Virus record (IMG/VR): IMGVR_UViG_3300028840_001395
Span: 1-64,000 of that record
Length of the DNA stretch: 64,000 nucleotides
From: a virus
Direction: 5' to 3' (one strand)
Below the pieces are notes generated by a model that had not been told where the DNA came from, searched no databases, and worked only from the letters and a program-made list of their open reading frames with translations. Positions 36,267 through 49,887 of the stretch are shown here, piece after piece (the stretch's first letter is position 1; the number at the start of each line of letters is the position of its first letter). A program made the position numbers and the translations under genes.

Positions 36267-36870
36267 GCATCAACTCCTGCCAACTCCACTTACTCCCCAG
36301 AGCGTCCTGGATGTCAACCGGAAGCTGCTCCCAGCCGATGACCTTGTTGTCGTAGAGATAGACATGGGAAGGCACCTTCAGCAGTCGCTTGACGAACTTG
36401 ATACCCTTCTCGGTCGGCTTCCACAGCCCCGAATCCTTCTTGTCCTGGGATCGGGTCGCGGGAGCCGTGATGGCGAGCCCCCATTTGGTGATGTAGGAAT
36501 AGTCCCGCCCCTCACCCTCCGAACGGATGTCGGTGTACTTCACCCAGTCCTGGGTCTCCCCGAAGCGACGAACTAGCCGGATGAGGAAGCGAGCCATGTT
36601 GGCGTTGAGCTTCCGGCGATAGACCTTGATGTTCTGGCCACAGCACGGACACTCACCCCCATCACCTTCCAGGCACATCGTCACCTGACGAACGGCATCC
36701 TCGTGGGTCAGATCCGACCGAGGGGCGGGGAGGACACCATCCAGGTCACTGTGCGGGTACTCGCTCCGGGGAAAGAGCGCCCCTTCATCCTCATCTTCGT
36801 CGTCGTTGAGGCCCAGAAGGTCATCGATGTCCAGGGGCTCTCGGCCTGCGAAGGGGTCTCTGGTGCTCAT
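36259..36870 (-). CDS. Zinc-ribbon plus winged-helix-like DNA-binding protein
   Basis: 203 aa. After an acidic tail (LLGLNDDEDEDEGALFPRSE) come a CPCCGQNIKVYRRK zinc knuckle, a helical part (MARFLIRLVRRFGETQDWVK) and a winged-helix-like end (ITKWGLAITAPATRSQDKKD, GLWKPTEKGIKFVKRLLKVP). This resembles a widespread phage protein of unknown function that I recall as a probable DNA-binding wHTH. The start ATG 36870 overlaps the upstream stop as ATGA; the longer frame to 36990 is not coding-like. Confidence 0.65.
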   Translation of the reverse strand: MSTRDPFAGREPLDIDDLLGLNDDEDEDEGALFPRSEYPHSDLDGVLPAPRSDLTHEDAVRQVTMCLEGDGGECPCCGQNIKVYRRKLNANMARFLIRLVRRFGETQDWVKYTDIRSEGEGRDYSYITKWGLAITAPATRSQDKKDSGLWKPTEKGIKFVKRLLKVPSHVYLYDNKVIGWEQLPVDIQDALGSKWSWQELMRA

Positions 36871-37502
36871 CGGACAGCCTCGAACCGAGCGGCACCGTTC
36901 TTCTTGACGATGCGGTATGCCTGGTCGGCAGCCTCGACCAGCGCCGGGTTGTGGGTCACCAGCAGGATGTCCAGCCCCAGCCGCTCGCACAGGACGGACA
37001 TGAAACGGCCCATGTTGGCGACGTAGTTGCCGTCGAAAGCCGGAAGAGACTCATCCAGCAGCAGGACAGGTCGGAGTCCACGACGGAGGATGATGATGAC
37101 CCGGAGCAGGATGGACTGAACAGTCGCCACAGCCCCGCCAAAGGCGTCGTTGCTCATGCCTTCGACTTCGGCCCCGCCGGGATGTGTCTGTGAGGTCACC
37201 AGATCCACCGTGACCTTGCCCCGCTGGACATCCACGTTGGCCTTGACCCGAAGATCCTGGTCATCGAACACGGTCTGTAGCCCCTCGGTCTGGAGCTTCT
37301 CGACTGCCTCAACCCCGACCGTGACCTCCTGGTCGATGAGTTGCCGGAGCAGCCCGGCCACGAGGTCGAGCAGTGCCTCTTCGTTCTCCAGGGTGCGGAT
37401 GTCACTCTCGACGGTATTCAGCCGCGAGGCGACTCCATCTCGGAGACCGATGGCCCGGTCGAGCTTCGACCGCAGCTCGGTCGCTGTAGGGAGGGAAGGC
37501 AT
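36867..37502 (-). CDS. C-terminal half of a split Rad50/SbcC-type ATPase
   Basis: 211 aa from ATG 37502. A coiled-coil N-terminus (LRSKLDRAIGLRDGVASRLN, ENEEALLDLVAGLLRQLIDQ) leads into the ABC signature (SNDAFGGAVATVQSILLRVI), Walker B (RPVLLLDESLPAFDG) with a D-loop, and the H-loop (LLVTHNPALVEAADQAY). No Walker A exists here. The complementary N-terminal half, with Walker A and ending at a CPVCG zinc hook, is encoded at 46876-47964 beside SbcD. The two could assemble one complete ATPase. An alternative is an independent, unusual SMC-like fragment. It lies next to the clamp gene (4-bp gap). Confidence 0.78.
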   Translation of the reverse strand: MPSLPTATELRSKLDRAIGLRDGVASRLNTVESDIRTLENEEALLDLVAGLLRQLIDQEVTVGVEAVEKLQTEGLQTVFDDQDLRVKANVDVQRGKVTVDLVTSQTHPGGAEVEGMSNDAFGGAVATVQSILLRVIIILRRGLRPVLLLDESLPAFDGNYVANMGRFMSVLCERLGLDILLVTHNPALVEAADQAYRIVKKNGAARFEAVR

Positions 37503-37506
37503 CCCG

Positions 37507-38673
37507 TCACCGGAGCCACGCCGCAACGGTCAGGTACTCGTCGCCGCCCTTGCCTTCCTCGTCCGCGAACAGGACATCCACGAACCGCAGGTAGCCACCC
37601 TTCTTGCGACGGCTGACGCCGAACTTGATGGTGTCCGACTTCACGAAGTCGAGGATCTTGGTCAGGTTCGGGTAGGCCAGGGTGAAACCCTCATCCGGGA
37701 GAGGGTCAGCGTCGGGCTCGGAGCCCGACTCCACACAGGTCACCTTCTGCTCCGCCGTCCCACCCGTGGCGGTCTGCATCGAGAGGATGACAGGCCGCTC
37801 CGTGTCGTCCGGGTCGCCGGGTCGGGTGAAGCGGAGGCGGTCATCCTCTCGCTGGGCACCCGACTCCAGGAAGGGGATGGCGTTCCGAAGCTCCTCGGTG
37901 TCGAGCACCCACCAGTGCGGATCCTTGTCCGGAGGGCGGTTGAAGACCGGGAAGTTGGCATCGAACCGGCTCTCCTCGAACACGGCCCCGTCCGACCGGC
38001 GGAGGAACAGGCACTTGTCGTGCTCCAGCACTTCCACGTCGTCCTTGATCGTGGCCAGGAAGCTCAGGATGGCCCCCGCATCCTTGGAGTGGACGCGCAT
38101 CGAGGAGTCCTTGAGAGCCGCCACCGACACCAGGGTCGCCGTCCGCTTGTTCGTGCTGGCGAGCACCCCCTCCTTGACCTCGCAGACGCACAGCTCCGGC
38201 TGACGGCTCTCGTCCGCCGACGCGAAGTTGCGGGAGTAGTCGATGGCCCGGTGCAGCCGCTCGGCGGGCATCAGGGCGATGATCTTGGCATCCCCCAGCG
38301 CCTTGTCCCAGAACGGGAACTTGCTCGGGTCGAGCGACTGGAACTTCTGCGTGCCCTTGCCAGGGCAGACCGCCTCGACCACGGCCCCGTCGAACTCGAA
38401 GGTCAGGGCAGCGTCCGGCAGCTTGCTGAGCCACTTCTTGAGCCGCCAGCCCTCGATGGTGAAGGCGTCGAAGTCCGACTCATCCACTGTCGCTGTCACC
38501 GGGCACAGGGCCGAGATGCGGGTCGAGTAGGTCATCACCTGGATCTTCTCGCGGTCGGCGGGATCACGCCGGAACAGGAAGTGAACCGACAGATCGCTGC
38601 CCGTCCCTGCCAGGCATGAGGCCACCACGTCCAGCGCGTTCTCCAAATCCTGCTTCGCCACCTGAATCTTCAT
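37507..38673 (-). CDS. dnaN: DNA polymerase III beta sliding clamp
   Basis: 388 aa, close to the 366-aa bacterial clamp. The start MKIQVAKQDLENALDVVASC is typical. Three repeated clamp folds can be traced: FDAFTIEGWRLKKWLSKLPD, AERLHRAIDYSRNFASADES with VLASTNKRTATLVSVAALKD, and GFTLAYPNLTKILDFVKSDT. The ring tethers polymerase. An insertion near residue 270 (PHWWVLDTEELRNAIPFLES) enlarges domain 3. It is coupled by ATGA to the upstream coiled-coil gene. Clamp plus gamma/tau, delta and delta' suggests the phage also encodes a Pol III-type polymerase outside this window. Confidence 0.88.
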   Translation of the reverse strand: MKIQVAKQDLENALDVVASCLAGTGSDLSVHFLFRRDPADREKIQVMTYSTRISALCPVTATVDESDFDAFTIEGWRLKKWLSKLPDAALTFEFDGAVVEAVCPGKGTQKFQSLDPSKFPFWDKALGDAKIIALMPAERLHRAIDYSRNFASADESRQPELCVCEVKEGVLASTNKRTATLVSVAALKDSSMRVHSKDAGAILSFLATIKDDVEVLEHDKCLFLRRSDGAVFEESRFDANFPVFNRPPDKDPHWWVLDTEELRNAIPFLESGAQREDDRLRFTRPGDPDDTERPVILSMQTATGGTAEQKVTCVESGSEPDADPLPDEGFTLAYPNLTKILDFVKSDTIKFGVSRRKKGGYLRFVDVLFADEEGKGGDEYLTVAAWLR

Positions 38674-38942
38674 GCTTCCTCCAGAAACGGGCGCACCTCA
38701 CCCTCAGCGGTCTCGATGCGCTGCGTCAAATCCTTCACTTCCTGGTCGAACCTATCTTCGAGCTTCTCGATGGCCCCGTCGAGCTTCTCGGGGGCCACCT
38801 TGCGCTTCTTGCATTCGGCCTCGATGCTCTCCACGTCCTCGCGGGCAGCCGTCAGACGCCCCTTGACGTTGCTCACGCTTTCCTTGGCGTCATCCCGGCG
38901 TCCCAGCAGGGCATCGAGCATCGCACGCTTCTCATCGGCCAT
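38670..38942 (-). CDS. Small coiled-coil protein upstream of the clamp
   Basis: 90 aa, entirely heptad-like (MLDALLGRRDDAKESVSNVK, REDVESIEAECKKRKVAPEK, KLEDRFDQEVKDLTQRIETA). It has one Cys and no enzyme motif. It overlaps dnaN by ATGA. Given the split Rad50 nearby, it might be a detached coiled-coil piece of that ATPase, or an unrelated regulator. Confidence 0.6.
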   Translation of the reverse strand: MADEKRAMLDALLGRRDDAKESVSNVKGRLTAAREDVESIEAECKKRKVAPEKLDGAIEKLEDRFDQEVKDLTQRIETAEGEVRPFLEEA

Positions 38943-38964
38943 TTCAACCTCCGCAGCTAGTCCT

Positions 38965-38989
38965 ACTACCCCTTGTCTCCGGAAGTTGA
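38965..38989 (-). promoter_or_regulatory. Bipartite promoter-like element upstream of the coiled-coil/clamp operon
   Basis: Minus strand TCAAC (38989-38985), 15 bp, GTAGT (38969-38965), preceded by a six-G run. It overlaps the end of the Cas4-like gene. Confidence 0.5.
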
Positions 38990-39973
38990 CCCCCCATCGA
39001 AACTGAGAAGCTGGAATCCCTCCACACCGTCGAGCATCTCATCGGTGTTCCGGGGCTTGCGGCGATTCTTGGACTTCTGGGCCTGGCGGTCGGGGCAGAC
39101 GCTCTCGTAGTCACAGAACCGGCAGGTCTTCCAGTGGGGCTTGGCGTCGAACTTCTCCTTGTCCATCGCCTTGCGGACATCCACGGCCCGCTGGGCGAGC
39201 CCCTTGACATCCTCCTTGGAACACTCGACCCACTCGATCCCCTCCTCCTTGACCTCGTTGCCCTCGTCGTCCAGCACGGGCTTTCCATCTACATCGAGGA
39301 CCGTCGCGCCGTAGGGGTAACGGTAGTAGCAGAAGCCCAGACGGTCAGGCATCTGCTTGTAGCACAGGTAGAAACAGAGGGCGTACCAGCGCAACTGGTC
39401 GGGGTCGGTGTAGGTCATCAACCCACCCTTGCCGTCCTTGTAACGCCGGGAGTTCTTGCCGTCGATGATGGTGACCCCGGTGTCCTCGCGCTTGACGATG
39501 AGGTCAGCACGACCACCGATGGGCGTGTACTTGTTGGCGTAGGCCACCATGTCCTGCTCGGCCTTCGAGTAGGGGCCGATGAGCCGATGGGCCTTCATGG
39601 TCTTCATGTAGCCCAACACCCCGGCCTTGATGACCTCCAGCATCTCTTCCCTGGGAGGGGCCTGTCGCCAGTCGATGTAGTTCCGGGCCGCTTCGAGCTT
39701 GAAGTTCTGCTCGCACATCTCCAGCAGCCGCTCGATGAGCTGATCCTTGGACAGGAGCTTCCACAGCTCGTCGTTGTAGAACCGCTCGATGACCCACTGG
39801 ATGACGACGCCCATCAGGGCGTGATGCCAGGACTTCTGGAAGGGCTTGGGCTTCTTCCTGCCCGGCCCACCACCGACATCGATGGCTCCCCACCCCTTCG
39901 ACCAGAGGAAATTCTGCGGGCAATCTTCATACTTGGCGAGGCTTGACCAGTAGAGCGTGAATTCCCGTGCCAT
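38966..39973 (-). CDS. PD-(D/E)XK nuclease, RecB/Cas4-like with Fe-S cluster cysteines
   Basis: 335 aa. A nuclease of the Cas4/AddB-C-terminal group that degrades or trims DNA ends. The N-terminus has SSLAKYEDCPQNFLW (first Cys). The core shows GGRADLIVKREDTGVTIIDG followed by KNSRR, giving the D-(x)n-D-x-K signature. A Gln-containing helix follows (DPDQLRWYALCFYLCYKQM). The C-terminal trio CRFCDYESVC completes a likely four-Cys [4Fe-4S] site. It probably acts with RecD-like helicase or SbcCD in recombination. Confidence 0.88.
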   Translation of the reverse strand: MAREFTLYWSSLAKYEDCPQNFLWSKGWGAIDVGGGPGRKKPKPFQKSWHHALMGVVIQWVIERFYNDELWKLLSKDQLIERLLEMCEQNFKLEAARNYIDWRQAPPREEMLEVIKAGVLGYMKTMKAHRLIGPYSKAEQDMVAYANKYTPIGGRADLIVKREDTGVTIIDGKNSRRYKDGKGGLMTYTDPDQLRWYALCFYLCYKQMPDRLGFCYYRYPYGATVLDVDGKPVLDDEGNEVKEEGIEWVECSKEDVKGLAQRAVDVRKAMDKEKFDAKPHWKTCRFCDYESVCPDRQAQKSKNRRKPRNTDEMLDGVEGFQLLSFDGGSTSGDKG

Positions 39974-40026
39974 ACCACTCCTACCCTTTCTCCGAGGTAT
40001 CTTATCCTACCCCGAAGCGGGCGGAG

Positions 40027-41184
40027 TCAAACAGGATTTTCCACGGCCCAGATGAGGTTCTGACACAGCTCGTCCAGCTTGGCGAAGTCAGGTGTCCGGG
40101 GAAGAGAGGACTTCCGCCACACCTCGATGAGATCCTTGTCCTGCTCCTCGGCCCAGGAGTCGAGGTAGTCGAAGGCCCACTCGCCGTTGAGCACGCCCCT
40201 CAGCTTGGGCGCGTCGTGTACCCTCTTGACGATGACGTCACCCGTGGTGCCTATCTCCCGGCACATAGTCATGAGCCGGACAAGGTGCATCCCGTGCTTG
40301 GTGTCGTACCCGAACTTCTTCTCCAAGGCGGCACGGGCCGGGTTCCGGTGCTTCTTCCAGTTCTGGTAGTGCTCCCAGTCCAGCACGGCCTGCCGCCACT
40401 GCTTCTCCCTGGTGAGCATCTCCAGGAAGTTCTCCTCGTAGCCCAGGAGGCGTCCGGCGGCGGCGAACTGCTCGTCGTCCGCGATCTCCAACTCGGTCAG
40501 ACGACGGTACATCTGCTCCTTGACGTAGATCTTCTCGGCGTCGTCCATCTGGCCGAAGTCGATCTCCCAGGAGTCGATCTGCTTCTGGATGCGGCTCATC
40601 GCAGCGTTGAGCTGATCCTTGGAGATGGCCACCATGTCCGAGAGGCCGAACTCCGACCGCAGCGGCCTGTGGGTCGGCGGGTCAAGCAGCCAGCGGCGGT
40701 GCCGCTTGATGCGCTTGATCTGCGACATCGCATAGCCCCGGAAGCTGGCGCTGGCCTTCTTCGAGAGGAAGTCCTGCCGGGCGTTCCGAAGGATCTGGCC
40801 GACGTGGTTGCAAACCACGAGGTCATCGCCGTGGGCGAACAGCACATCGAGGATGTTCGGGTTGCAGGCTGCCGCCATCTGAACGAACTTGATCACGTTG
40901 AAGATGGTGCAATCGATGGGCTGCTTGACCTCCAGTTGGTCGAACTTGTGCAGGAAGCCCATCCGATACTGATGGGGCGGCACGCAGACGCCCTTGTAGT
41001 CGTAGTCCGAGTCGGGCCGATTCGTCCCGTAGGCCCGGCTGCCCGTGACCGCGACCAGAATCAGGCGGTCCTTCTCGCCCATCCACCTCATGTGGGAGCG
41101 GGACTTGTCGCTCAAGAGAGACGCAATGTTGAACAGGGTGTGGAGGTTGCCCTCGGCCTCCGGCCCCTTGACGATTCCATCCAT
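40027..41184 (-). CDS. RlaP-type predicted nucleotidyltransferase (RNA-repair associated)
   Basis: 385 aa from ATG 41184 (TGATG overlap). The polymerase-beta-fold catalytic motif is VAVTGSRAYGTNRPDSDYDY followed by KGV, matching GSRAYG-(x)n-DSDxD of the RlaP family. That family is linked to RNA ligases and repair in bacteria and phages. Helical segments follow (FVQMAAACNPNILDVLFAHG, ASFRGYAMSQIKRIKRHRRW), typical of this group. Substrate unknown; it probably transfers a nucleotide to RNA ends or a protein. It sits one gene away from the Tpt1/KptA gene, supporting an RNA-repair role. Confidence 0.82.
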   Translation of the reverse strand: MDGIVKGPEAEGNLHTLFNIASLLSDKSRSHMRWMGEKDRLILVAVTGSRAYGTNRPDSDYDYKGVCVPPHQYRMGFLHKFDQLEVKQPIDCTIFNVIKFVQMAAACNPNILDVLFAHGDDLVVCNHVGQILRNARQDFLSKKASASFRGYAMSQIKRIKRHRRWLLDPPTHRPLRSEFGLSDMVAISKDQLNAAMSRIQKQIDSWEIDFGQMDDAEKIYVKEQMYRRLTELEIADDEQFAAAGRLLGYEENFLEMLTREKQWRQAVLDWEHYQNWKKHRNPARAALEKKFGYDTKHGMHLVRLMTMCREIGTTGDVIVKRVHDAPKLRGVLNGEWAFDYLDSWAEEQDKDLIEVWRKSSLPRTPDFAKLDELCQNLIWAVENPV

Positions 41185-41531
41185 CAGATCACCTCGTAAT
41201 CCTCCAGGGCCATCGGCCCTTCGAGCTTGAACGTGCCCTTCTGCTTCCCGTTGGGATCCCACCCCTGCGTCAGGGCGGAGAGAATGAGCTTCTTCGCGTC
41301 CTTGGGCGTCACCGCCGCCTTCAGATCCTCGTCGGGCATCTCCGGCCCACGGTCATGCACCATGAGCTTAGCCTGCAAGGTCGCCCCGTGATCCTTGATG
41401 TCCTCGTGGGCCAGGAACCAGACCACATCGGGAGCCGCTCCTGGAAGGGTCTTGTGGTGGTTCCCCAGCGCCCAGCGGAAAGCTCTGTCCTCGATCTCGA
41501 TGCGCCTCGACTTCTTTCTCGGTAGTGTCAT
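41184..41531 (-). CDS. Hypothetical protein coupled to the RlaP-type gene
   Basis: 115 aa, basic N-terminus (LPRKKSRRIEIEDRAFRWAL), a conserved-looking core (PDVVWFLAHEDIKDHGATLQ) and an acidic helical middle (DEDLKAAVTPKDAKKLILSA). Overlaps the nucleotidyltransferase start as TGATG. It has its own promoter-like element upstream. No family recognised. Confidence 0.6.
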   Translation of the reverse strand: MTLPRKKSRRIEIEDRAFRWALGNHHKTLPGAAPDVVWFLAHEDIKDHGATLQAKLMVHDRGPEMPDEDLKAAVTPKDAKKLILSALTQGWDPNGKQKGTFKLEGPMALEDYEVI

Positions 41532-41549
41532 GCGTCACCTCTTGCCTAG

Positions 41550-41574
41550 ACTACTCTCTCGAAAGGTCTGATGA
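41550..41574 (-). promoter_or_regulatory. Bipartite promoter-like element (AGAGTAGTCTAGG type) upstream of 41184-41531
   Basis: Minus strand TCATC (41574-41570), 15 bp, GTAGT (41554-41550) within AGAGTAGTCTAGG. The same 13-mer occurs upstream of the kinase-phosphatase and coaD genes. Confidence 0.6.
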
Positions 41575-41575
41575 G

Positions 41576-42127
41576 CTACTGTTTCCCCAGGTACTCCGGC
41601 GGAACATGATCGGTGAGCCAGACCCCATTGTCGCTCACGAAGAACTCGAAACCATCCCTGAACATCCGCCCAGCCTGAACCTTGAACATGATGGGGCGGC
41701 CCCCGCGTCGCAGACCCACCGTATGGGCGGTCTGTGGGTCCGGGGAGAGATGGACGTGGTGGCGCTCCATCTTCTTCAATCCCTCCCGCTCAATGGCCTC
41801 CCTCACCTTCGGGTAGCTCCCGTGGTAGAGATACTCGGGCGGCTCGGAGGGCTGGTATCCCAGGTTGACCTTGACGGAGTGGCCCTGGCTGGCCCGGATA
41901 CGCTTGCCATCCTCGGACATGGCGAACCGCTTCTTGTTGTTCTCGGCCACCGCTTGCAGGATGAGTTGCCGGGTCATCCAGTTCGGAGACTTCTCGACCA
42001 GCGTGTTGAAGTCCGTCCAGCCCTGGTCATCGAGGGTGATGCCGATCTTCTCGGGCTTGTGTCGGAGCACCAGGCTCATGAACTTGCTGGCCCTGACGAC
42101 CGGGTTCTGGCTTCTCTTGCCAGCCAT
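41576..42127 (-). CDS. kptA: RNA 2'-phosphotransferase, Tpt1/KptA family
   Basis: 183 aa, family length. The enzyme moves an internal RNA 2'-phosphate to NAD+, giving ADP-ribose 1'',2''-cyclic phosphate and clean RNA. Visible motifs: SKFMSLVLRHKPEKIGITLD (the Arg-His of the catalytic set), DGKRIRASQGHSVKVNLGY, YLYHGSYPKVREAIEREGLK, HHVHLSPDPQTAHTVGLRRG and FEFFVSDNGVWLTDHVPPEY. All main conserved Arg/His positions of the family seem present. The start is ATG 42127 (MAGKRS); the frame upstream is not conserved. It is neighbour to the RlaP-type and Pnkp genes. Confidence 0.92.
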   Translation of the reverse strand: MAGKRSQNPVVRASKFMSLVLRHKPEKIGITLDDQGWTDFNTLVEKSPNWMTRQLILQAVAENNKKRFAMSEDGKRIRASQGHSVKVNLGYQPSEPPEYLYHGSYPKVREAIEREGLKKMERHHVHLSPDPQTAHTVGLRRGGRPIMFKVQAGRMFRDGFEFFVSDNGVWLTDHVPPEYLGKQ

Positions 42128-42159
42128 CTTTCTATCTCCCGTGGGTGGCTGCCAGCACA

Positions 42160-42411
42160 TCAGGATTCGTGGAACTCGTGGCACTTCCCGCAGTACTTGT
42201 GGCGAACATCGTTGGGGTTGTAGGAAGTCATCCCGCACTTGAGGCACTTGATGGCCATATCCCCATGAGCACCCTCGACCGGGATGATCTTGTAGGTCTT
42301 GCGGGTCTTCTCCGCCGGGGGCTCGGCCTTGGGAGGAGGAGCCGCCCTCCGCGTCGGCAGCGGCGCTCTCCGGCCACTCCTGCTACGTCTGCCGCCTCTG
42401 CAACAACCCAT
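42160..42411 (-). CDS. Small zinc-ribbon protein
   Basis: 83 aa from ATG 42411 (TGATG overlap). The N-terminus is Arg/Pro-rich and disordered. The C-terminal 35 residues (IKCLKCGMTSYNPNDVRHKY followed by CGKCHEFH) form a four-Cys ribbon with the TSxNPNDV phrase that I recall from many phage zinc-ribbon proteins. Probably a nucleic-acid-binding accessory. Function unknown. Confidence 0.7.
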   Translation of the reverse strand: MGCCRGGRRSRSGRRAPLPTRRAAPPPKAEPPAEKTRKTYKIIPVEGAHGDMAIKCLKCGMTSYNPNDVRHKYCGKCHEFHES

Positions 42412-42755
42412 CAGTGCCACGTCACATTCTCGGGAATCTCATCGTCATCGTCACCGAAGATGCGATCCCAGCCGTCCCGATACGCCCTGGACGCTACGCG
42501 GGCAGGCCCCTTGTGACCTGTCCCCTCCTGGACCACCTCGACATCGTAGAGCGGACTGCCCTCACGCCTCTTGACGTTGATGATCTCCTTGCCGTCCATC
42601 TCTTCCTCGGTCATCGAGTCGGTGTTCTTGACCCTTCCGACCTCGATAGACCGCTGACCTTCCTCGTTCTGGCGAAGGCGCATGATCTGGGCTTCATCCT
42701 TGTCCTCACCGAGGATGATGGCCTGGTCGATCTTCTTGGCCTTCTTCTCGCTCAC
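42411..42755 (-). CDS. Hypothetical charged protein
   Basis: 114 aa from GTG 42755 with GGAGGCGAGG upstream. Lys/Glu-rich N-terminus (SEKKAKKIDQAIILGEDKDE) and a C-terminus with ARVASRAYRDGWDRIFGDD and an acidic run. The segment PARVASRAYRDG recalls the RVA tag seen in structural-cluster proteins. No family recognised. Confidence 0.55.
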   Translation of the reverse strand: MSEKKAKKIDQAIILGEDKDEAQIMRLRQNEEGQRSIEVGRVKNTDSMTEEEMDGKEIINVKRREGSPLYDVEVVQEGTGHKGPARVASRAYRDGWDRIFGDDDDEIPENVTWH

Positions 42756-42776
42756 GACCTCGCCTCCGTGGAGGAT

Positions 42777-42800
42777 TCTACCACACCTATAGCCCCATGA
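42777..42800 (-). promoter_or_regulatory. Bipartite promoter-like element upstream of 42411-42755
   Basis: Minus strand TCATG (42800-42796), 14 bp, GTAGA (42781-42777). Weaker member of the ten-site set; the first half lies inside the upstream coding sequence. Confidence 0.4.
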
Positions 42801-43026
42801 CCTTGGATACGAACTTCTTCACGACCTCCACCACCTCGACAGCCGACCGATCTCCCCGGTCATAGGCATCGAAAGCCTCCCTGGAATAGGGGTCAGCCGC
42901 TCGGGCGTAGTCGAGGTAGTCCCGTTTCTTCTCCGCAGAGAGGTTCCCGCCCCAGGCTCGGACGAATGGCCCGAGATACCACTCACGGTGAGGACGGTCA
43001 CCTGGCCTGCACTCTCCCTCTGCCAT
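42787..43026 (-). CDS. Small hypothetical protein after the kinase-phosphatase gene
   Basis: 79 aa from ATG 43026, one base past the upstream stop. Contains PHREWYLGPFVRAWGGNLSA and helical YLDYARAADPYSREAFDAYD, then VVEVVKKFVSKVMGL. No known domain. Confidence 0.5.
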   Translation of the reverse strand: MAEGECRPGDRPHREWYLGPFVRAWGGNLSAEKKRDYLDYARAADPYSREAFDAYDRGDRSAVEVVEVVKKFVSKVMGL

Positions 43027-43027
43027 G

Positions 43028-43999
43028 TCAGGCTCCGAAGAACTCGTGCGCCCAGGCGAACTGGAATCCACACCGCTCCGCGAAGGTCTTGTCCTTGGTC
43101 ATGTCGCCCACGAAAATGGTCTGGCTCGGGTCGAGCTTGTATTTCTCGATGAACCACACGCCCATGCCGGGGCACGGCTTCGGCCAGTACGACTGCGGGA
43201 CGCCGCCCCGCTCGGTCGAGTAGATGTAGTCGATGTCCACGCCCAGGAGCCGGTTGGTCTCATCGAACGCCTCGATGGCCCCCTGCTCGGGCACGTACTT
43301 CTTGTCACCCGGCTTCTTGGCGATGCCAGACTGGTTGCTGGCCCCACACAGGATGAAGCCCTCGCGCTGCTTGGCCTGGAGCAGATCCCGGCGACCATCC
43401 ATGATCTGCACCTCGACGGCGCAGGTCGGAGAGGGGTTGTCCGGGTTACTCGACGTGCGGAGGGTGCCGTCGTAGTCGAGGATGATGGCCCGGTTGGTGT
43501 AATCGTCTGGCAGGGTGATCTCGACCGGGACAGTCTCGATGGCCGTGAACCCCTCGGACTGCTCGGGCATCACCAGTCGCTTGAACCAGGCGAACTGGGC
43601 CACGGGCGGGAACATGTTGGGGTCATCCTTGTGAGCCTTGTAGTCCTCCTTGCGGAACAGCTTGCCGTAGCGCCGGATCTGACGCAGAGCGGCGAGGAAC
43701 TGGCACTGTTCCTTGGTGGCGTCCAGCCACACGAGCCGGACGGGGAGCCCCAGCTCCTGACCCACAGCCAGGAGCGTCTCTCGGGCCTCCACGGTGCCGT
43801 AGGTGTTGTCCAGGACGAACAACCGCTTGCCCTGTGCGTGCAGCTCGCGGACTCGCTGGTAGACCTGGCCTCCATCCTTGAGGGAGCCTCCCAGCTCGTC
43901 CCGGTTCACCCGGATGTAGCCCACCTTCTCGAAGCGTGCGGTCTCCCGTGTCTTGCCCGAAGCCATCGGGCCACCCACGGCCACAATTTCACCGCTCAT
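43028..43999 (-). CDS. pnkp: Polynucleotide kinase-phosphatase (T4 Pnkp order)
   Basis: 323 aa. It heals nucleic-acid ends by adding 5'-phosphate and removing 3'-phosphate or 2',3'-cyclic phosphate. The kinase half begins with P-loop GGPMASGKT (~9-17), then RVNRDELGGSL, VLDNTYGTVEARETL (lid/acceptor Asp) and RQIRRYGK. The HAD phosphatase half has AIILDYDGTLRTSSNPDNPS (catalytic Asp175 and Asp177), ILCGASNQSGIAKKPG (motif II Ser) and FVGDMTKDKTFAERCGF (motif III/IV Asp pair). Kinase-first order is as in T4. Genome context with KptA and an RlaP homologue favours RNA repair. Confidence 0.94.
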   Translation of the reverse strand: MSGEIVAVGGPMASGKTRETARFEKVGYIRVNRDELGGSLKDGGQVYQRVRELHAQGKRLFVLDNTYGTVEARETLLAVGQELGLPVRLVWLDATKEQCQFLAALRQIRRYGKLFRKEDYKAHKDDPNMFPPVAQFAWFKRLVMPEQSEGFTAIETVPVEITLPDDYTNRAIILDYDGTLRTSSNPDNPSPTCAVEVQIMDGRRDLLQAKQREGFILCGASNQSGIAKKPGDKKYVPEQGAIEAFDETNRLLGVDIDYIYSTERGGVPQSYWPKPCPGMGVWFIEKYKLDPSQTIFVGDMTKDKTFAERCGFQFAWAHEFFGA

Positions 44000-44017
44000 G
44001 CGATACCTCCTACCTAG

Positions 44018-44042
44018 ACTACTCTCTCGGAGAGCGAGATAA
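44018..44042 (-). promoter_or_regulatory. Bipartite promoter-like element upstream of pnkp
   Basis: Minus strand CTTATC (44043-44038), 15 bp, GTAGT (44022-44018) within AGAGTAGTCTAGG. Spacing and both half-sites match the coaD site exactly. Confidence 0.65.
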
Positions 44043-44044
44043 GC

Positions 44045-44821
44045 CTAGTCCAGCAAGTCCATGATGTCGGTAGGTTCAAAATCATGGAGGGGTCTGTCCC
44101 CAGCAGCTTCCAGACGTTTCCGAGCCACATCGCAGTAGCCAGGCTCCTTCTCAATCAGGACATATCCCCGTCCCATCTGCTGGGCCACGACCCCCACAGT
44201 GCCGCTTCCGGCGAAGGGGTCGAGAACCACATCCTCGGGGTCTGTGTACACTTCAAGAACCCGCTGGACAAGAGACTCGGGGAAGGCTGCGGGGTGTTCC
44301 ACCGCCATGTGCTTCTCACCGACCGTGCTCCACACGGCCCGCTGGCTCAACTGGCGGTTCCTGATCTTCTGCTCCTTGGGCGCACCCTCGATCTTGCGGA
44401 AGGTGTAGAGGTGCTCGAACTCGGGGACAGGGCGAGGGGCAGAGATGGCGTGCTTGCCCCCGGTGATCTTGGAGAAGTCCTTGTGCCAGACCCGCTGGGC
44501 CTGGAGGACAAGTCCGTTGGCGAGGCCCTGCGACCAGTAGATCCAGCCCATCGGCATCTCGCACGGGGCCTCTGTCCCCAGAATCTCTCGGGCCGGGATG
44601 ATGTCTCCGAAGTTGAACACGGCGTAGCCACCACGCTTGAGGACGCGCCGACACTCCCTGAAGGTCTCGTTGAGCAGTTGCAGCAGGACGCCGATTCGGA
44701 TGTCCGGCTCGTAGTCCTTTCCAACCGCATAGGGCGGTGACGTGAACACGAGAGCCACTGATTCGGAGGGGATCTTGGGCAGCACGTCTTCACTACGACC
44801 ACAGATCAGAGTGTTCTTCAC
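44045..44821 (-). CDS. DNA methyltransferase, N4-cytosine/N6-adenine beta-class
   Basis: 258 aa from GTG 44821 (GTGA overlap with the HNH gene). The catalytic motif is VFTSPPYAVGKDYE (SPPY suggests N4-cytosine, though some adenine enzymes share it). The AdoMet-binding motif is VVLDPFAGSGTVGVVAQQMG near the C-terminus, so the order is IV then I as in the beta class. Middle: GYAVFNFGDIIPAREIL and PEFEHLYTFRKIEG. No partner restriction enzyme of standard type is next to it, so it may protect phage DNA from host restriction. The HNH gene beside it might be a nuclease partner; uncertain. Confidence 0.9.
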   Translation of the reverse strand: MKNTLICGRSEDVLPKIPSESVALVFTSPPYAVGKDYEPDIRIGVLLQLLNETFRECRRVLKRGGYAVFNFGDIIPAREILGTEAPCEMPMGWIYWSQGLANGLVLQAQRVWHKDFSKITGGKHAISAPRPVPEFEHLYTFRKIEGAPKEQKIRNRQLSQRAVWSTVGEKHMAVEHPAAFPESLVQRVLEVYTDPEDVVLDPFAGSGTVGVVAQQMGRGYVLIEKEPGYCDVARKRLEAAGDRPLHDFEPTDIMDLLD

Positions 44822-45309
44822 GGGATCGGAACTCCTACGGACAAGAGCCAGGACAGGTCGAGAGTCCACTCATGGACGCTGCGCTCGTTCCAGATCCGGG
44901 CCGCATCGCGGACATGCTCCCGCGCCTGGCGCTCCGTCCAGCCGTTGACCTCCATCATGTGAGCGATGGCCTCGTCCGCGAACCCCTGGGTCTGGGTGAA
45001 CCCGAAGTGCTTGACCCCGTGGCAGGCCGGACAGAGCGCGATGAGCCGGACGAGTTTCTGGACGTGAGTCTTCTCATCGTAGTCCCAGATCTCGTGACAC
45101 TCGACTGGATGCTTCGGCCCCTTCCCACCACAGATCTCGCAGTGGTATCCGGCTGCCGCGTAGGTCATCTTGCGGAGCTTGTCCCAGTCCTTCCTCGGGA
45201 GGTCAGAGCGCAGGTTCTTCCCCCACGCCGTCGAGGGAACCAGTTCGACAGTCAGAGTCTCGGTCGGAGACGTGTCGTTGAGGTCGAACTCCTGAAAGCC
45301 GTCAGCCAT
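44818..45309 (-). CDS. HNH-family nuclease-like protein with zinc cysteines
   Basis: 163 aa. The core is CEICGGKG, then VECHEIWDYDEKTHVQKLVR and LIALCPACHGVKHFGFTQTQ: two CxxC pairs for structural zinc, with H-(x)n-N/H-H type residues of the beta-beta-alpha metal fold. The C-terminus is a helical domain (MEVNGWTERQAREHVRDAAR). Such short HNH proteins are common in phages. Start ATG 45309 overlaps coaD by 8 bp. Function could be DNA nicking in recombination or restriction-like cleavage with the adjacent methyltransferase. Confidence 0.8.
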   Translation of the reverse strand: MADGFQEFDLNDTSPTETLTVELVPSTAWGKNLRSDLPRKDWDKLRKMTYAAAGYHCEICGGKGPKHPVECHEIWDYDEKTHVQKLVRLIALCPACHGVKHFGFTQTQGFADEAIAHMMEVNGWTERQAREHVRDAARIWNERSVHEWTLDLSWLLSVGVPIP

Positions 45310-45823
45310 CTCCAAACCTCTCCCGAAGGCGCTTCCGGACGGCGGGGGGCACCATCCGATCCACCACCTCGCGCCAGCCGTTCGGGCCGATGAGTCCCTT
45401 GACCAGACTGGACGACACCTCGCAGTATTCACGGGGCGGAATGAGATACACGCTCTCGACTTCGGGGTCGATGTCCTCGTTGACGTGCCTCATCATCTTC
45501 TCGAAGGCCAGATCCTCGGCTGACCGGACACCCCGAACCAGATGCGTAGCCCCTACCTTGGATGCGTAGCGGACGAGGTAGTCGCCTCCGAATCCGGCAA
45601 CCTCGACCTTCTTGCCCTCGGGCCAGATGATGACCTTCTCCAGCAGCATGTCCACAGTCTCTTGGAGCATGTCCATGCGCTCCTCCAGACTGAACATCGG
45701 TGTCTTGTCCGGGTTGACCCCGACCGCGATCACCAGATCATCGAAGAGGGTGATCGCCTGTTGCATGACCCAGACGTGGCCCACGGTGGGAGGGTCGAAA
45801 CTGCCTGCGTAGATGGCTTTCAT
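45302..45823 (-). CDS. coaD: Phosphopantetheine adenylyltransferase
   Basis: 173 aa, family length. It catalyses the fourth step of coenzyme A synthesis, ATP plus 4'-phosphopantetheine to dephospho-CoA. Motifs: YAGSFDPPTVGHVWVMQQA (nucleotidyl-transfer TxGH motif), LVRGVRSAEDLAFEKMMRHV (R-GxR-x-xxDxxxE) and CEVSSSLVKGLIGPNG (ISSTxVR equivalent). All expected sites are in place. It has its own promoter-like element. A CoA gene in a phage is an auxiliary metabolic gene; it could also supply a nucleotide-modifying activity. No other CoA gene is visible here. Confidence 0.93.
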   Translation of the reverse strand: MKAIYAGSFDPPTVGHVWVMQQAITLFDDLVIAVGVNPDKTPMFSLEERMDMLQETVDMLLEKVIIWPEGKKVEVAGFGGDYLVRYASKVGATHLVRGVRSAEDLAFEKMMRHVNEDIDPEVESVYLIPPREYCEVSSSLVKGLIGPNGWREVVDRMVPPAVRKRLRERFGDG

Positions 45824-45839
45824 GAGACCTCCGCCCTAG

Positions 45840-45864
45840 ACTACTCTGCCGAGATCGGGGATAA
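45840..45864 (-). promoter_or_regulatory. Bipartite promoter-like element upstream of coaD
   Basis: Minus strand CTTATC (45865-45860), 15 bp, GTAGT (45844-45840) within AGAGTAGTCTAGG, 20 bp before the start codon. Confidence 0.65.
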
Positions 45865-45866
45865 GC

Positions 45867-46886
45867 CTATGCCCCCGCCTTCTCCAGGTAGAGGATAGCC
45901 CGCTCTCGCACCTCGTCCTCGATCCCGTCCATCCCCTCAATGGTCTCCCGAAGTGACACGTCATCCTGTCGGGTGAGCACATCTCGGAGCCCCTCCACGA
46001 AGGTCTCGATGTTCATCTGTCGAGCCTCAGCCCGGACGCGACCCTCGATGTCGAATACCTCCTTGGCAGGCTGCACCCGCAAGGGCTTCTCCTCGATGCT
46101 GAAGACCTCCTTGCCTGGGCCGAAACGGAGGATCGCACAGGATGGCGTCCGTTTCAGGTCATCCTCGACCAGCGCCCCGCGAGCCAGGCTGCCGATGTTG
46201 ACCACCCACTTACCGTGGGCGATCTCGGTGACCCCCTGGTTCTTGTGCCAGTGTCCGAAGCACCACACGTCCGGGTCGAGGTTGGCCAGGTCAGAGTAAT
46301 TCAGCACATCCTCGGCCCCGAAGAATTCGCCCCCCTCCTCGCTGGCCAGACAGTGAGCCACCACGACCAGATGATCCTCGTCGCCCTTGGTGATAGCGTT
46401 GAAGCGGTTCACGTCATACTGGGTGCCGTGATAGGGAATGCCCACCACCCGGACGCGGAGCTTGGGCTTGGTCGTCCCGTCCACCTTCACCGCGTCCGGC
46501 CAGATCGTGAAACGGGCCTCGTGCTCATCGAACAAAGGCACGAACGTCCGGGTCTTGAACAGCACCCCCAGAGGGCTCTCTTCCAGGTATTCCAGGCTCC
46601 CGTACTTCACGTCATGGTTGCCCACGGTAGCATGGACTGTCACGCTCTGGTGGACTTCTGCGACCCGCTGGATGAGCTTGTGGCTGTTCCTGACCGGGCT
46701 CTTGATGTGAAAGAGGTCGCCGCCGTCGAGAATGGCCTCGGCATTCTCGTCCAGGGCGATCTCCACCGTCTGGGACAGCTTGTCCAGAATCGTAGCGGCC
46801 CAGTCGTCTGTCCGCGACTGGGGTGGTTGGTCAGCCAGGTGGGCATCGGAGCGCCAGATCAGGGTGATGGTGTCGTCAGTGCTCAT
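45867..46886 (-). CDS. sbcD: SbcD/Mre11-type DNA exo/endonuclease
   Basis: 339 aa, calcineurin-like metallophosphoesterase. Motifs in order: WRSDAHLAD, AILDGGDLFHIKS, ATVGNHDV, LVVVAHC and WCFGHWHKNQ, the full Mre11 metal set. The C-terminal capping part is short. With a Rad50/SbcC partner it opens hairpins and resects ends. It starts at ATG 46886, inside the last codons of the Rad50 N-half gene (overlap 11 bp), so the two are co-translated. The ATG two codons earlier is possible, but GGGGGA spacing favours 46886. Confidence 0.92.
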   Translation of the reverse strand: MSTDDTITLIWRSDAHLADQPPQSRTDDWAATILDKLSQTVEIALDENAEAILDGGDLFHIKSPVRNSHKLIQRVAEVHQSVTVHATVGNHDVKYGSLEYLEESPLGVLFKTRTFVPLFDEHEARFTIWPDAVKVDGTTKPKLRVRVVGIPYHGTQYDVNRFNAITKGDEDHLVVVAHCLASEEGGEFFGAEDVLNYSDLANLDPDVWCFGHWHKNQGVTEIAHGKWVVNIGSLARGALVEDDLKRTPSCAILRFGPGKEVFSIEEKPLRVQPAKEVFDIEGRVRAEARQMNIETFVEGLRDVLTRQDDVSLRETIEGMDGIEDEVRERAILYLEKAGA

Positions 46887-47964
46887 GGTCATCCCCCAGC
46901 ACCGAACCGCAGACCGGGCATTCCCCAAGCTCCTCCAGAAGCTCGGCCACAGCCTTCTCGGCACTATCCAGACTTGCCTGTTCCGCAACCAGCTTCTCTT
47001 CCAGGGTGGCAACCCTCTTGGTGGCCGCAGCGTGCCGGGCCTTGAGGTCTTGCAGCACACCCAGGGCGTCGAGGAACCGGGTTGCCGGGGTGAAGTCGAT
47101 GTCCACCTCGATGTTCTCGACCCCAGCGAGGGACTCGACCCGCTCCACCGCGTCTGTGTAGCGGGTCTGCAACTCCCGCAGGTCGTCGGATTCATCGAGG
47201 ATGGCCTGGAGAGAGTCGAAGTCCTGGTCACCCGGCACTTCGACATCCTCGATGCCTTCCAGGGCTTCCACCGCCGCTGTGGCGGAGTTCTTCCTGTCCC
47301 GCAGGTCAGAGAGCCCGAGAATGGCCTTTTCGACCACAGCGGCCTTCTGAAGCCCCTGCTCGATGCTCTGGACTTCACCCTCCAGGTCGTCCAGGCCGTC
47401 GAACCGCCCAAGCTCCTCTTGGAGCGTCTGCCTGTCAGACATCCGCACCTTGAGTGTCGAACCAGCCGAACGCCGGTCAGACTCGGACAGCTTGAGCGCC
47501 TGATTGAGCTGAGTCACCCGCTCCACGTCGGCCACAGCCTCGGCCAGCACACTTCCGGGCTGGTCGAGCAGGAAGATCTGGCCGGTGAACTGGGGGGCGA
47601 ACTGGGGCCAGATCTCCCGACCCCCGGCCTGGATGGGTCGGATGCCCAGGTCACGCACCTCGTCGGGAACATGCTGACCCGGATGGATGGGCGACCCATC
47701 GTTGATCACGTAGGTCGGCTTGGCCTTCTTCGCCTTGCCCTTCGACCATTCCAGCTTGCCGTCCGGGAACTGGACTTCGACGGTGGCCTTGGGCTTCTTG
47801 TGCCGGACGAACCCGGTGCCACGGGTGTTCTGGAAGGCTCCCCGAATGGCCCGCATCAGGGCGGACTTGCCCGAGTTGTTCGGGCCGGTGATGACTGTGA
47901 AGCCATTCACCTCGATGGACGCATCTGCGATGCTTTGGAAGTTCTGGACGCGGACCTTGAACAT
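46876..47964 (-). CDS. N-terminal half of a split Rad50/SbcC-type ATPase, ending at the zinc hook
   Basis: 362 aa. Residues 1-60 are a Rad50/RecF-like ATPase start: VRVQNFQSIADASIEVNGFT, then TGPNNSGKSALMRAIRGAFQ (Walker A). A Q-loop region (QIFLLDQPGSVLAEAVADVE) follows, then coiled coil from ~160 to 340. The last 15 residues hold CPVCG, the zinc-hook CxxC, and the protein stops ten residues later. No signature, Walker B or H-loop exists, so it cannot hydrolyse ATP alone. The missing half is encoded at 36867-37502. Overlap with sbcD fits an Mre11-Rad50 complex. Confidence 0.85.
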   Translation of the reverse strand: MFKVRVQNFQSIADASIEVNGFTVITGPNNSGKSALMRAIRGAFQNTRGTGFVRHKKPKATVEVQFPDGKLEWSKGKAKKAKPTYVINDGSPIHPGQHVPDEVRDLGIRPIQAGGREIWPQFAPQFTGQIFLLDQPGSVLAEAVADVERVTQLNQALKLSESDRRSAGSTLKVRMSDRQTLQEELGRFDGLDDLEGEVQSIEQGLQKAAVVEKAILGLSDLRDRKNSATAAVEALEGIEDVEVPGDQDFDSLQAILDESDDLRELQTRYTDAVERVESLAGVENIEVDIDFTPATRFLDALGVLQDLKARHAAATKRVATLEEKLVAEQASLDSAEKAVAELLEELGECPVCGSVLGDDHEH

Positions 47965-47987: not shown

Positions 47988-49241
47988 CTACTCCTCGACG
48001 GTCTCTTCCGAGTCCCCCTTGGAGGACTGGTTGCCCGTGAGGATGGCGTCGATGTCCGCGAAGTCGTCCTCCTCCGGCTGCGGGATGTTCTCGACCTTCC
48101 CGGAGGACATCGCCACCATGACGGCCTTGTACAGCTCAGGCCACGCCCCCTCAACCTGGGCGATCTCCTCCTTGAACTTGGACATGCCCTGACCACGGAT
48201 CTCGGTGCCGTCCTTGCGCTCCCAGGTGAGCCACGCGCCGCCCTTCTTCACGACCCCGTGGGACGAGGCCGTCTCGATGACGGAGCGGATGTCGTCAATC
48301 CCCTCCCCGAACCGGATGTAGAGATCATCTTCGAGGCCCTGGCTGCCCGCGACCTTGCACTTGTCGATCTTGAGCCGAACCACCGCGCCAGAAGCGGCAT
48401 CGACCTTCTGGTGCTTGCGGGGATCGTAGGCCTTCTCCTTCAAGGACTTGACCCGCTTGAGCCGCAGACGCAGGGCGGAGTAGAACTTCCAGGCGTTGCC
48501 GCCCGCTGTGGTGGTCTTGTCCCCGTAGCCCGACATGTTGATCTTGTCCCGAAGCTGGCTGACACCGATCACGCAGGAGCCAGTCCGGGTGATCACGGTC
48601 TGAAGCTGCGGGAGGAACTGCGACCAGATCCGGGCGACGTTGCCCAATCCACCACCGCCACCGCCCGTGTCGCCCTTGTCGTCAAGCTCCTGGGACATCA
48701 CGGCCTCGGGAATACCGGCGCTCACCGAGTCCACGATGATGAGGGTGACCCCGGCCTTGGCCATCGCCCACAGAACCTTGATGCCCTTCTCCAGGCTGTC
48801 GGGCTGGACGAGCATGAACTTCTTGGGATCCTGCACCGGGACACCGATGGTCGTCGCGTAGGCCAGGTCGATGGCGTGCTCCCAGTCGATGAAGCACACG
48901 GTGCCGCCCTTGGCGATGGTCGTGGCGGAGGCGGTCAGGGCCAGGGTGGTCTTGCCTGCCGACTCCATGCCGTAGAGATTGACGATGCGACCACGGGGGA
49001 GGCCGGGACACGGCATCACACCGAAGCGATTGGTGCGACCCCCGATGAGGAAGTCGGCCACGATAGACCCCGTGGGGAGGTGAGGGATGGACTTCTTGAG
49101 CCGCCCCTCGTTGACCTCCACGAAGGAGTCATCCTTGAGCACACTCGACACGATCTTCTTGCCCGCCAGCAGCGGGTTCGGAGACCCCTGCTTCTCATCC
49201 TTGTCCTTCTTGGTGGACTTCTTCGCCTTCGCCTTCGCCAT
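47988..49241 (-). CDS. recA: RecA/UvsX-type recombinase
   Basis: 417 aa from ATG 49241 with AGGAGGAAGACG; the open frame to 49277 is not needed. It forms filaments on ssDNA for strand exchange. Motifs: VNLYGMESAGKTTLALTASA (Walker A), VCFIDWEHAIDLAYATTIGV, TLIIVDSVSAGIPE (Walker B), GVSQLRDKINMSGYGDKTTT (loop L1/L2 region with AGGNAWKFYSALRLRLKRV). An insertion of glycines (DTGGGGGGLGNVARIWSQFL) replaces the usual loop L1 sequence. The C-terminus is acidic, as is usual. It overlaps the RuvC-like gene by 47 bp. Confidence 0.94.
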   Translation of the reverse strand: MAKAKAKKSTKKDKDEKQGSPNPLLAGKKIVSSVLKDDSFVEVNEGRLKKSIPHLPTGSIVADFLIGGRTNRFGVMPCPGLPRGRIVNLYGMESAGKTTLALTASATTIAKGGTVCFIDWEHAIDLAYATTIGVPVQDPKKFMLVQPDSLEKGIKVLWAMAKAGVTLIIVDSVSAGIPEAVMSQELDDKGDTGGGGGGLGNVARIWSQFLPQLQTVITRTGSCVIGVSQLRDKINMSGYGDKTTTAGGNAWKFYSALRLRLKRVKSLKEKAYDPRKHQKVDAASGAVVRLKIDKCKVAGSQGLEDDLYIRFGEGIDDIRSVIETASSHGVVKKGGAWLTWERKDGTEIRGQGMSKFKEEIAQVEGAWPELYKAVMVAMSSGKVENIPQPEEDDFADIDAILTGNQSSKGDSEETVEE

Positions 49242-49887
49242 CGTCTTCCTCCTGCGACCATAGGAAAAATCGTTCATCCTCCCGGTAGAGGATACCTTTC
49301 AAAGCTGTCTCGCCAGCCCGCTTGCCCCGAGAGTACTTGTGGATCTCGGTGAACTGCTTCTTCTCCAAGGGTGTCAGGTCACTGACCCCTATTACCCCAT
49401 CATGGAGCAACCAGAACCTAGCTGCCGACCTGGCGACCCAGTAGGCGTCTGCCTCGTTGTGGTTCCAGCGGCCCTTGCCGCCCGTGTCGGCCTTGGCAGC
49501 CTCCACCATGTCGGGCTTGTTCATCTTCCAGCCCTTCGGTCGCTCAAGGAACCGATGGGCGTGGGCCTTGATCTGGCCGGGCGAGAAGAACACCACGTCC
49601 ACCTTCTCCATCCGGAGAGCCTCACAGGTGAACAGGAAGAGACCATACATGCCCTCTGACCAGAGATCGTTGAACACGGGATACTCGACCCCGAGCTTCT
49701 TCACGTCGAGTGACTGGACGAGGGCTTGGACGTGAGATCGCATCTCGACGTAGCGGTCAACGAAGAGGGTCTTGGCCGAAGTCTGGAATCGACCGCGCTC
49801 AAGACAACGGCCAGGCCCTGCACCATCGGTATCGTGCAGAGCCCAGCCGAAGTTCGTCAATGAGGGGTCAAATCCGAGGACGCGCAT
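49195..49887 (-). CDS. RuvC-like Holliday-junction resolvase
   Basis: 230 aa, RNase H-fold. Catalytic acids appear in RVLGFDPSLTNFGWALHDTD (first Asp), KLGVEYPVFNDLWSEGMYGL (Glu) and WNHNEADAYWVARSAARF (late acidic pair). These match the RuvC/phage-resolvase pattern. It cuts branched DNA before packaging. The C-terminal ~60 residues are charged and lie in the recA overlap, so they are probably dispensable. Start ATG 49887. Confidence 0.85.
   Translation of the reverse strand: MRVLGFDPSLTNFGWALHDTDGAGPGRCLERGRFQTSAKTLFVDRYVEMRSHVQALVQSLDVKKLGVEYPVFNDLWSEGMYGLFLFTCEALRMEKVDVVFFSPGQIKAHAHRFLERPKGWKMNKPDMVEAAKADTGGKGRWNHNEADAYWVARSAARFWLLHDGVIGVSDLTPLEKKQFTEIHKYSRGKRAGETALKGILYREDERFFLWSQEEDDGEGEGEEVHQEGQG

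Follow-up and report, generated by a model that had tools for sequence, protein, structure and literature searches.

A probable naturally split Mre11-Rad50-type complex, with Rad50 divided at the zinc hook, in a giant phage and in Bacillota

The first 64,000 nucleotides (64 kb; referred to here as the window) of the 435,804-base virus record IMGVR_UViG_3300028840_001395, which is that of a giant phage, carry two genes whose products very probably belong to a naturally split DNA-end processing complex of the Mre11-Rad50 type. One gene encodes a Rad50/SbcC-like protein from its N-terminus to the zinc hook (N-half), and the other encodes the remainder of the ATPase head (C-half). The initial annotation of the window had proposed such a split over about 9 kb; both products are encoded at the positions listed below, and 9.4 kb lies between the two genes. 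The same division, accompanied by the same small coiled-coil gene, is found in many further phages, as well as in about one sixth of the sampled Bacillota genomes. Our interpretation as a split complex builds on the homology of each half to Rad50, the conservation of the catalytic residues (the signature serine excepted), and the co-occurrence of the halves. It further draws on a cut at the hook throughout the family, a natural fusion of SbcD with both head lobes, and a conserved third gene. The two halves and their motifs are as follows.

46876 to 47964, minus strand: Rad50-like N-half, 362 residues, with head lobe I, helical arm, and terminal zinc-hook motif
47863 to 47886, minus strand: Walker A GPNNSGKS, N-half residues 27 to 34 (all 60 sequences have G27, G32, and K33)
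46921 to 47526, minus strand: N-half arm, residues 147 to 348 (predicted helices 147-187, 191-234, 246-279, and 292-346)
46909 to 46920, minus strand: zinc-hook CPVC, N-half residues 349 to 352 (C349 and C352 invariant in 60 sequences; solved hooks 1l8d and 6zff matched)
36867 to 37502, minus strand: Rad50-like C-half, 211 residues, with a long helix and head lobe II
37128 to 37142, minus strand: modified signature FGGAV in place of LSGGE, C-half residues 121 to 125 (G122 in 155/156 sequences)
37050 to 37064, minus strand: Walker B LLLDE, C-half residues 147 to 151 (D150 and E151 in 155/155)
36945 to 36956, minus strand: H-loop THNP, C-half residues 183 to 186 (H184 in 155/155)

As annotated at the outset, the N-half combines Walker A with a coiled coil and stops soon after the hook, ten residues following CPVC before the stop codon. 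Pfam recognized AAA_23 (E = 6e-10) and, weakly, the Rad50 hook (0.002). A profile of N-half relatives matched solved Rad50 over residues 6 to 221 (E = 1.6e-7), and its matches to solved structures of the Rad50 zinc hook had E values of 6e-6 and 1.2e-5. The AlphaFold model of the N-half reached a predicted local distance difference test (pLDDT) value of 87.2 and a predicted template modeling (pTM) score of 0.44, the arm being drawn as four helices separated by loops. Structure comparison aligned this model with 9a9j_A (Z = 12.2, 160 residues, 8.5 Å) and 1f2u_C (Z = 11.7, 126 residues, 3.0 Å).

The C-half had been taken to be the rest of the head, and this was borne out by the presence of SNDAFGGAV (residues 117 to 125), LLLDE, and THNP and by a match of the C-half profile (positions 24 to 208, E = 3.6e-14) to the C-terminal chain (chain B) of the Pyrococcus Rad50 head; Pfam returned almost nothing for the window's C-half (E = 0.074). 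The AlphaFold model, with a pLDDT of 94.6, aligned with 9a9j_B (Z = 13.2, 166 residues, 3.7 Å) and 1f2u_B (Z = 12.4, 144 residues, 2.9 Å). Since the N- and C-halves match different chains of the Pyrococcus head, the two gene products correspond to its two polypeptides, in line with the earlier claim that both halves are needed for one head. The family signature reads [RF]GG[GA][VI] instead of the LSGGE of Rad50, glycine replacing the serine in 155 of 156 sequences in a gapless alignment to solved Rad50; in Pyrococcus Rad50, the signature serine is important.

Relatives were collected from scans of viral contigs, which yielded 80 N-half and 66 C-half loci, and of bacterial genomes, which yielded 43 further loci. 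A CxxC motif lies beyond the head in 181 of the 187 N-half open reading frames (ORFs) that include a stop codon, the median distance from the hook to the end of the protein being 10 residues. The listed exceptions comprise three fusions, an unrelated ATP-binding cassette (ABC) protein, and Microbacterium phage Magritte, in which both halves are present (L006:8992-10041 and L219:284-934) but the N-half lacks the CxxC hook. No ORF of the two-gene type was matched by both the N- and the C-half model among 179 N-half and 144 C-half ORFs. Exactly one C-half was found in 21 of the 26 whole virus records with an N-half, the other five being fragments of at most 61 kb, and conversely 17 of the 20 virus records with a C-half contained an N-half. 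The genes may be adjacent, but in Tunturiibacter phage Tunturi_5 they are ~108 kb apart, in G003 ~147 kb, and in G006 as much as ~324 kb. SbcD is near the N- or C-half gene in nearly all loci. A local gene break, a pseudogene, or an assembly fault is ruled out by the identical cut in 181 ORFs. At two loci (L116:9953-10574 and L138:9956-10597), the C-half appears in two frames or pieces, perhaps owing to a frameshift in the sequence or the gene.

Fusions provide a second line of evidence. SbcD and the N-half share a single ORF at two loci, one viral (L078) and one in Bacillus sp. M6-12 (L213). In three Bacillota-type genomes (L231, L232, and L233), SbcD, the N-lobe, and the C-lobe form one chain of 686 to 702 residues without arm or hook. 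In these three genomes, a single molecule thus unites SbcD with both lobes, and this armless chain argues for a composite head. It is also the nearest thing to the one-gene versions for which the initial annotation had suggested surveying relatives; a fused form of the two-gene type was not found among them.

The division is not that of an ordinary Rad50 simply cut in two. That the cut falls at the hook, as first annotated, holds true, but the C-half retains only a short helix of constant length (75 residues; standard deviation, 3), and neither chain supplies more than a minor part of the descending coil. The N-half arm ranges from 129 residues upwards, with clusters near 138, 183, 230, 282, and 329, and its length shows no correlation with that of the C-half helix (rho = 0.02; 64 distinct pairs). 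This constant length and lack of correlation rule out a C-half that supplies a descending coil in register with the arm. The arms contain a 47-residue sequence repeat (z = 31), the top one among the offsets tested, whereas eight closely related canonical controls show heptads, near-symmetrical coil spacing around the hook, and no peak at 47 residues (z = -2.2). The repeat was therefore not regarded as a mere coiled-coil effect, although this comparison involves only eight close controls. As the arm varies in 47-residue steps and the C-half helix is constant, the arm seems to be made entirely by the N chain.

The following genes accompany the two halves in the window.

45867 to 46886, minus strand: SbcD/Mre11-like nuclease (Metallophos PF00149, E = 1.1e-10)
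47988 to 49277, minus strand: recombinase of the RecA/UvsX type, encoded immediately upstream of the N-half
38670 to 38942, minus strand: small helical-hairpin coiled-coil protein, 90 residues, candidate third subunit
37507 to 38673, minus strand: sliding clamp (DNA polymerase processivity factor; phrog_947, 4.4e-14), its gene flanked by those of the coiled-coil protein and the C-half

Transcription on the minus strand proceeds from RecA (49277-47988) through the N-half (47964-46876) to SbcD (46886-45867); beyond about 7 kb of other genes follow the coiled-coil gene (38942-38670), the clamp (38673-37507), and the C-half (37502-36867). The SbcD start codon (ATG at 46886) lies inside the N-half gene, and the overlap between the two, already noted in the initial annotation, amounts to 11 bases at the N-half end; the SbcD product has a calcineurin-like phosphoesterase domain, with GGD, GNHD, and GHWH in its translation. 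The C-half ATG at 37502 is located 4 bases past the clamp stop codon, the mechanically called ORF beginning at TTG 37526. A good ribosome site serves the coiled-coil gene, whose end overlaps the clamp start in the sequence ATGA. Placement of the clamp between the coiled-coil gene and the C-half gene recurs in related huge phages. A TnpB-like protein is encoded near the C-half (L003:19971-20681, minus strand) in the related huge phage LR745208. The whole 435.8-kb record, which is possibly incomplete, was searched for a separate full-length SbcC, named at the outset as evidence against a split, and none was found in it. One candidate, at record position 88016, was rejected as a compact ABC ATPase of 293 residues. 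This protein of the same phage (G000:C1:88016; L002:1405-2286) ends in a lysine-rich KKKAVKKPKKKAAKKK tail.

Outside phages, the phylum of Halonatronum (Bacillota) was sampled evenly, and the C-half family model matched 65 of its 398 sampled genomes but none of 14 control genomes, B. subtilis included. The usual order in Bacillota is SbcD-N-cc-C (cc, coiled-coil gene), often adjoining recA and with no clamp there. With neighbor names read from translations, the arrangement is recA-SbcD-N-cc-C-rny in Ezakiella, recA-recX-SbcD-N-cc-C-rny in Halonatronum, and NurA-HerA-SbcD-N-cc-C in Carboxydocella. In the last of these, the NurA-like and HerA-like genes (L182:454-3304) immediately precede the operon and form an end-resection cluster of archaeal type, here in a bacterial genome. 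Strong canonical SbcC matches were rarer in genomes with the split set (2/65) than in those without it (103/333; Fisher P = 1.6e-7), a comparison that ignores kinship, scores two candidates per genome, and uses a strict cut-off missing even B. subtilis. These counts hint that the split set replaces SbcC in Bacillota. In a tree of 88 C-halves, the window's sequence falls within an all-viral group of 28, and the bacterial operon and Bacillota phages form a separate group (100/97). The cut is identical on both sides of this tree, and the split is therefore old.

The small coiled-coil gene had been suggested as a possible third piece, a guess now supported by independent relatives. Its product is part of a conserved family of helical hairpins that have a G[IV]xP turn. 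The gene is located upstream of the C-half, either directly, with one gene between, or before clamp and C-half, in 71 of the nonredundant C-half loci, and three more were identified by position, giving 74 of 88; of the 12 loci lacking the gene, several are truncated at the end of a contig. The gene was not seen adjoining the armless SbcD-N-C fusions, and its presence with armed forms but not by these fusions suggests a subunit acting with the arm. In the window's genome, the third-gene profile weakly matches the helix that immediately precedes the hook of the N-half (E = 0.006), which may reflect only coiled coil, and solved structures were discarded as a guide to the family since they matched by low complexity or coiled coil only. 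Most likely, in our view, the small protein plays a structural part as a third subunit, in the arm or in the head-proximal coil. That it is instead a partner of the clamp, or independent of the split Rad50, is rather unlikely, and would touch only this part of the interpretation: the gene directly precedes the clamp gene in huge phages and its coiled-coil nature makes profile matches less specific, yet in Bacillota and their phages it stands next to the C-half with no clamp, and it is absent next to the armless fusions.

In the split complex that we propose, the N-half would contribute head lobe I (Walker A and a probable Q-loop), the entire arm, and the C-terminal zinc hook, and from the C-half would come head lobe II, with signature, Walker B, and H-loop, carried by a short helix that pairs with the first helix of the arm. 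Assembled from two N and two C chains, a composite ABC ATPase dimer would gate an SbcD nuclease dimer, and the two terminal hooks would join the arms through zinc. The task of the complex in the phage would be to process broken or hairpin DNA ends in support of recombination-linked replication that depends on RecA; the recA, RuvC-like, and helicase neighbors in phages point to recombination-dependent replication and break repair. Speculatively, a separate C chain could permit the head gate to open while the hook stays closed. As for a wider interpretation, we see an even chance that the family is an unrecognized old branch of Mre11-Rad50 with four kinds of subunit, an N-only arm of 47-residue repeats, and a C chain that could in principle dissociate, which would open or regulate the ring in a manner not available to single-chain Rad50; in many Bacillota, this branch would stand in for SbcCD.

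Several points weigh against the split complex. The assembly of N and C chains, ATP hydrolysis, zinc bridging, the role of the third protein, and the function in vivo are matters that we infer; the replacement of the signature serine by glycine could mean that hydrolysis or dimerization differs; the Rad50 link of the C-half, given its Pfam E value, depends on the family profile and the predicted fold; the N-half model, given its pTM, does not fix the path of the arm; and the phage record may be incomplete. A composite ATPase with a different task, such as clamp loading or unloading or SMC-like tethering, for which SbcD would be an occasional partner, is improbable. The huge-phage operon uniting C-half, coiled-coil gene, and sliding clamp and a signature unusual for Rad50 fit such a task, but SbcD is close to N or C nearly everywhere, is fused to N twice and to N plus C three times, and the Bacillota operon lies next to recA or NurA-HerA without a clamp. 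Models of defense ATPases gave partial matches, mostly to the P-loop or coil (e.g., LmuB and mad3). Still less probable are halves acting apart, the N-half as a hook-bearing tether and the C-half as a stand-alone ATP-binding regulator: although distances of over 100 kb and separate operons occur, each half lacks some of the ABC motifs, the two correspond to complementary chains of a single head, they co-occur, and the natural SbcD-N-C fusion exists. Restoration of a full-length Rad50 by trans-splicing, a split intein, or ligation, which the constant position of the cut might recall, can practically be dismissed, as the N-half has its own stop ~10 residues past the hook, the C-half has its own start beside the clamp stop, no intein-like extension was seen, and joining the two halves, which both lack most of the descending coil, would not yield a canonical chain.

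Rad50 and SMC proteins are regarded as one chain that folds back at the hook or hinge. A natural and widespread two-chain form would mean that the fold-back connection is dispensable and would offer a natural system for testing the roles of hook and coil; the armless single chain of SbcD and both lobes would be a minimal machine for structural work. Unnamed phage and Bacillota families would be tied to break repair, and distant phage genes called "exonuclease" and "ATPase" would be corrected to parts of one enzyme. The half genes of Bacillus phage vB_BboS-125 carry these two names, and the existing families PHROG 16465 ("exonuclease") and PHROG 15167 ("ATPase") contain N- and C-halves, with annotations that mention neither two parts of one Rad50 nor a link to the third gene. 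NCBIfam gave Rad50 matches below threshold only. No description of a split Rad50/SbcC was found in the open-access literature, subscription papers being outside the search, and the split form is apparently undescribed.

Further genes of the window, read from translations only, include possible RNA-repair genes between the halves (40027-43999, minus strand), namely, a polynucleotide kinase-phosphatase-like protein (43028-43999), a KptA/Tpt1-like RNA 2'-phosphotransferase (41576-42247), and a nucleotidyltransferase-like protein (40027-41262), all on the minus strand. A ribonucleotide reductase-like ORF (55012-57855, minus strand) is apparently interrupted by an intein (start CVTVDTPV, end HNT).

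Among known systems, other jumbo phages have an SbcC/SbcD pair with the same presumed role; in the part of a jumbo-phage survey dealing with this pair, SbcC is described as a single ABC ATPase that belongs with SbcD to the core recombination apparatus, and a split is not mentioned there (PMC7824862). The Pyrococcus furiosus Rad50 head (1f2u, 1ii8, 3qkr, and 9a9j) resembles the phage proteins in that N- and C-terminal polypeptides build one head, but its split is a laboratory construct, whereas the phage split is natural and keeps the hook on the N chain. With Rad50/SbcC and Mre11/SbcD, the family shares the head fold, Walker A, Walker B, the H-loop, the CxxC hook, the SbcD partner, and a neighborhood of recA or NurA-HerA. 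Rad50/SbcC is a single chain with coils of roughly equal length flanking the hook and the signature LSGGE, whereas the split family has two chains with no matching descending coil, the signature [RF]GG[GA][VI], an arm of 47-residue repeats, and an extra small coiled-coil gene. Because the single chain and LSGGE, two defining features of Rad50, are not found, we call the system a variant that would work like Rad50 rather than a plain member of that family.

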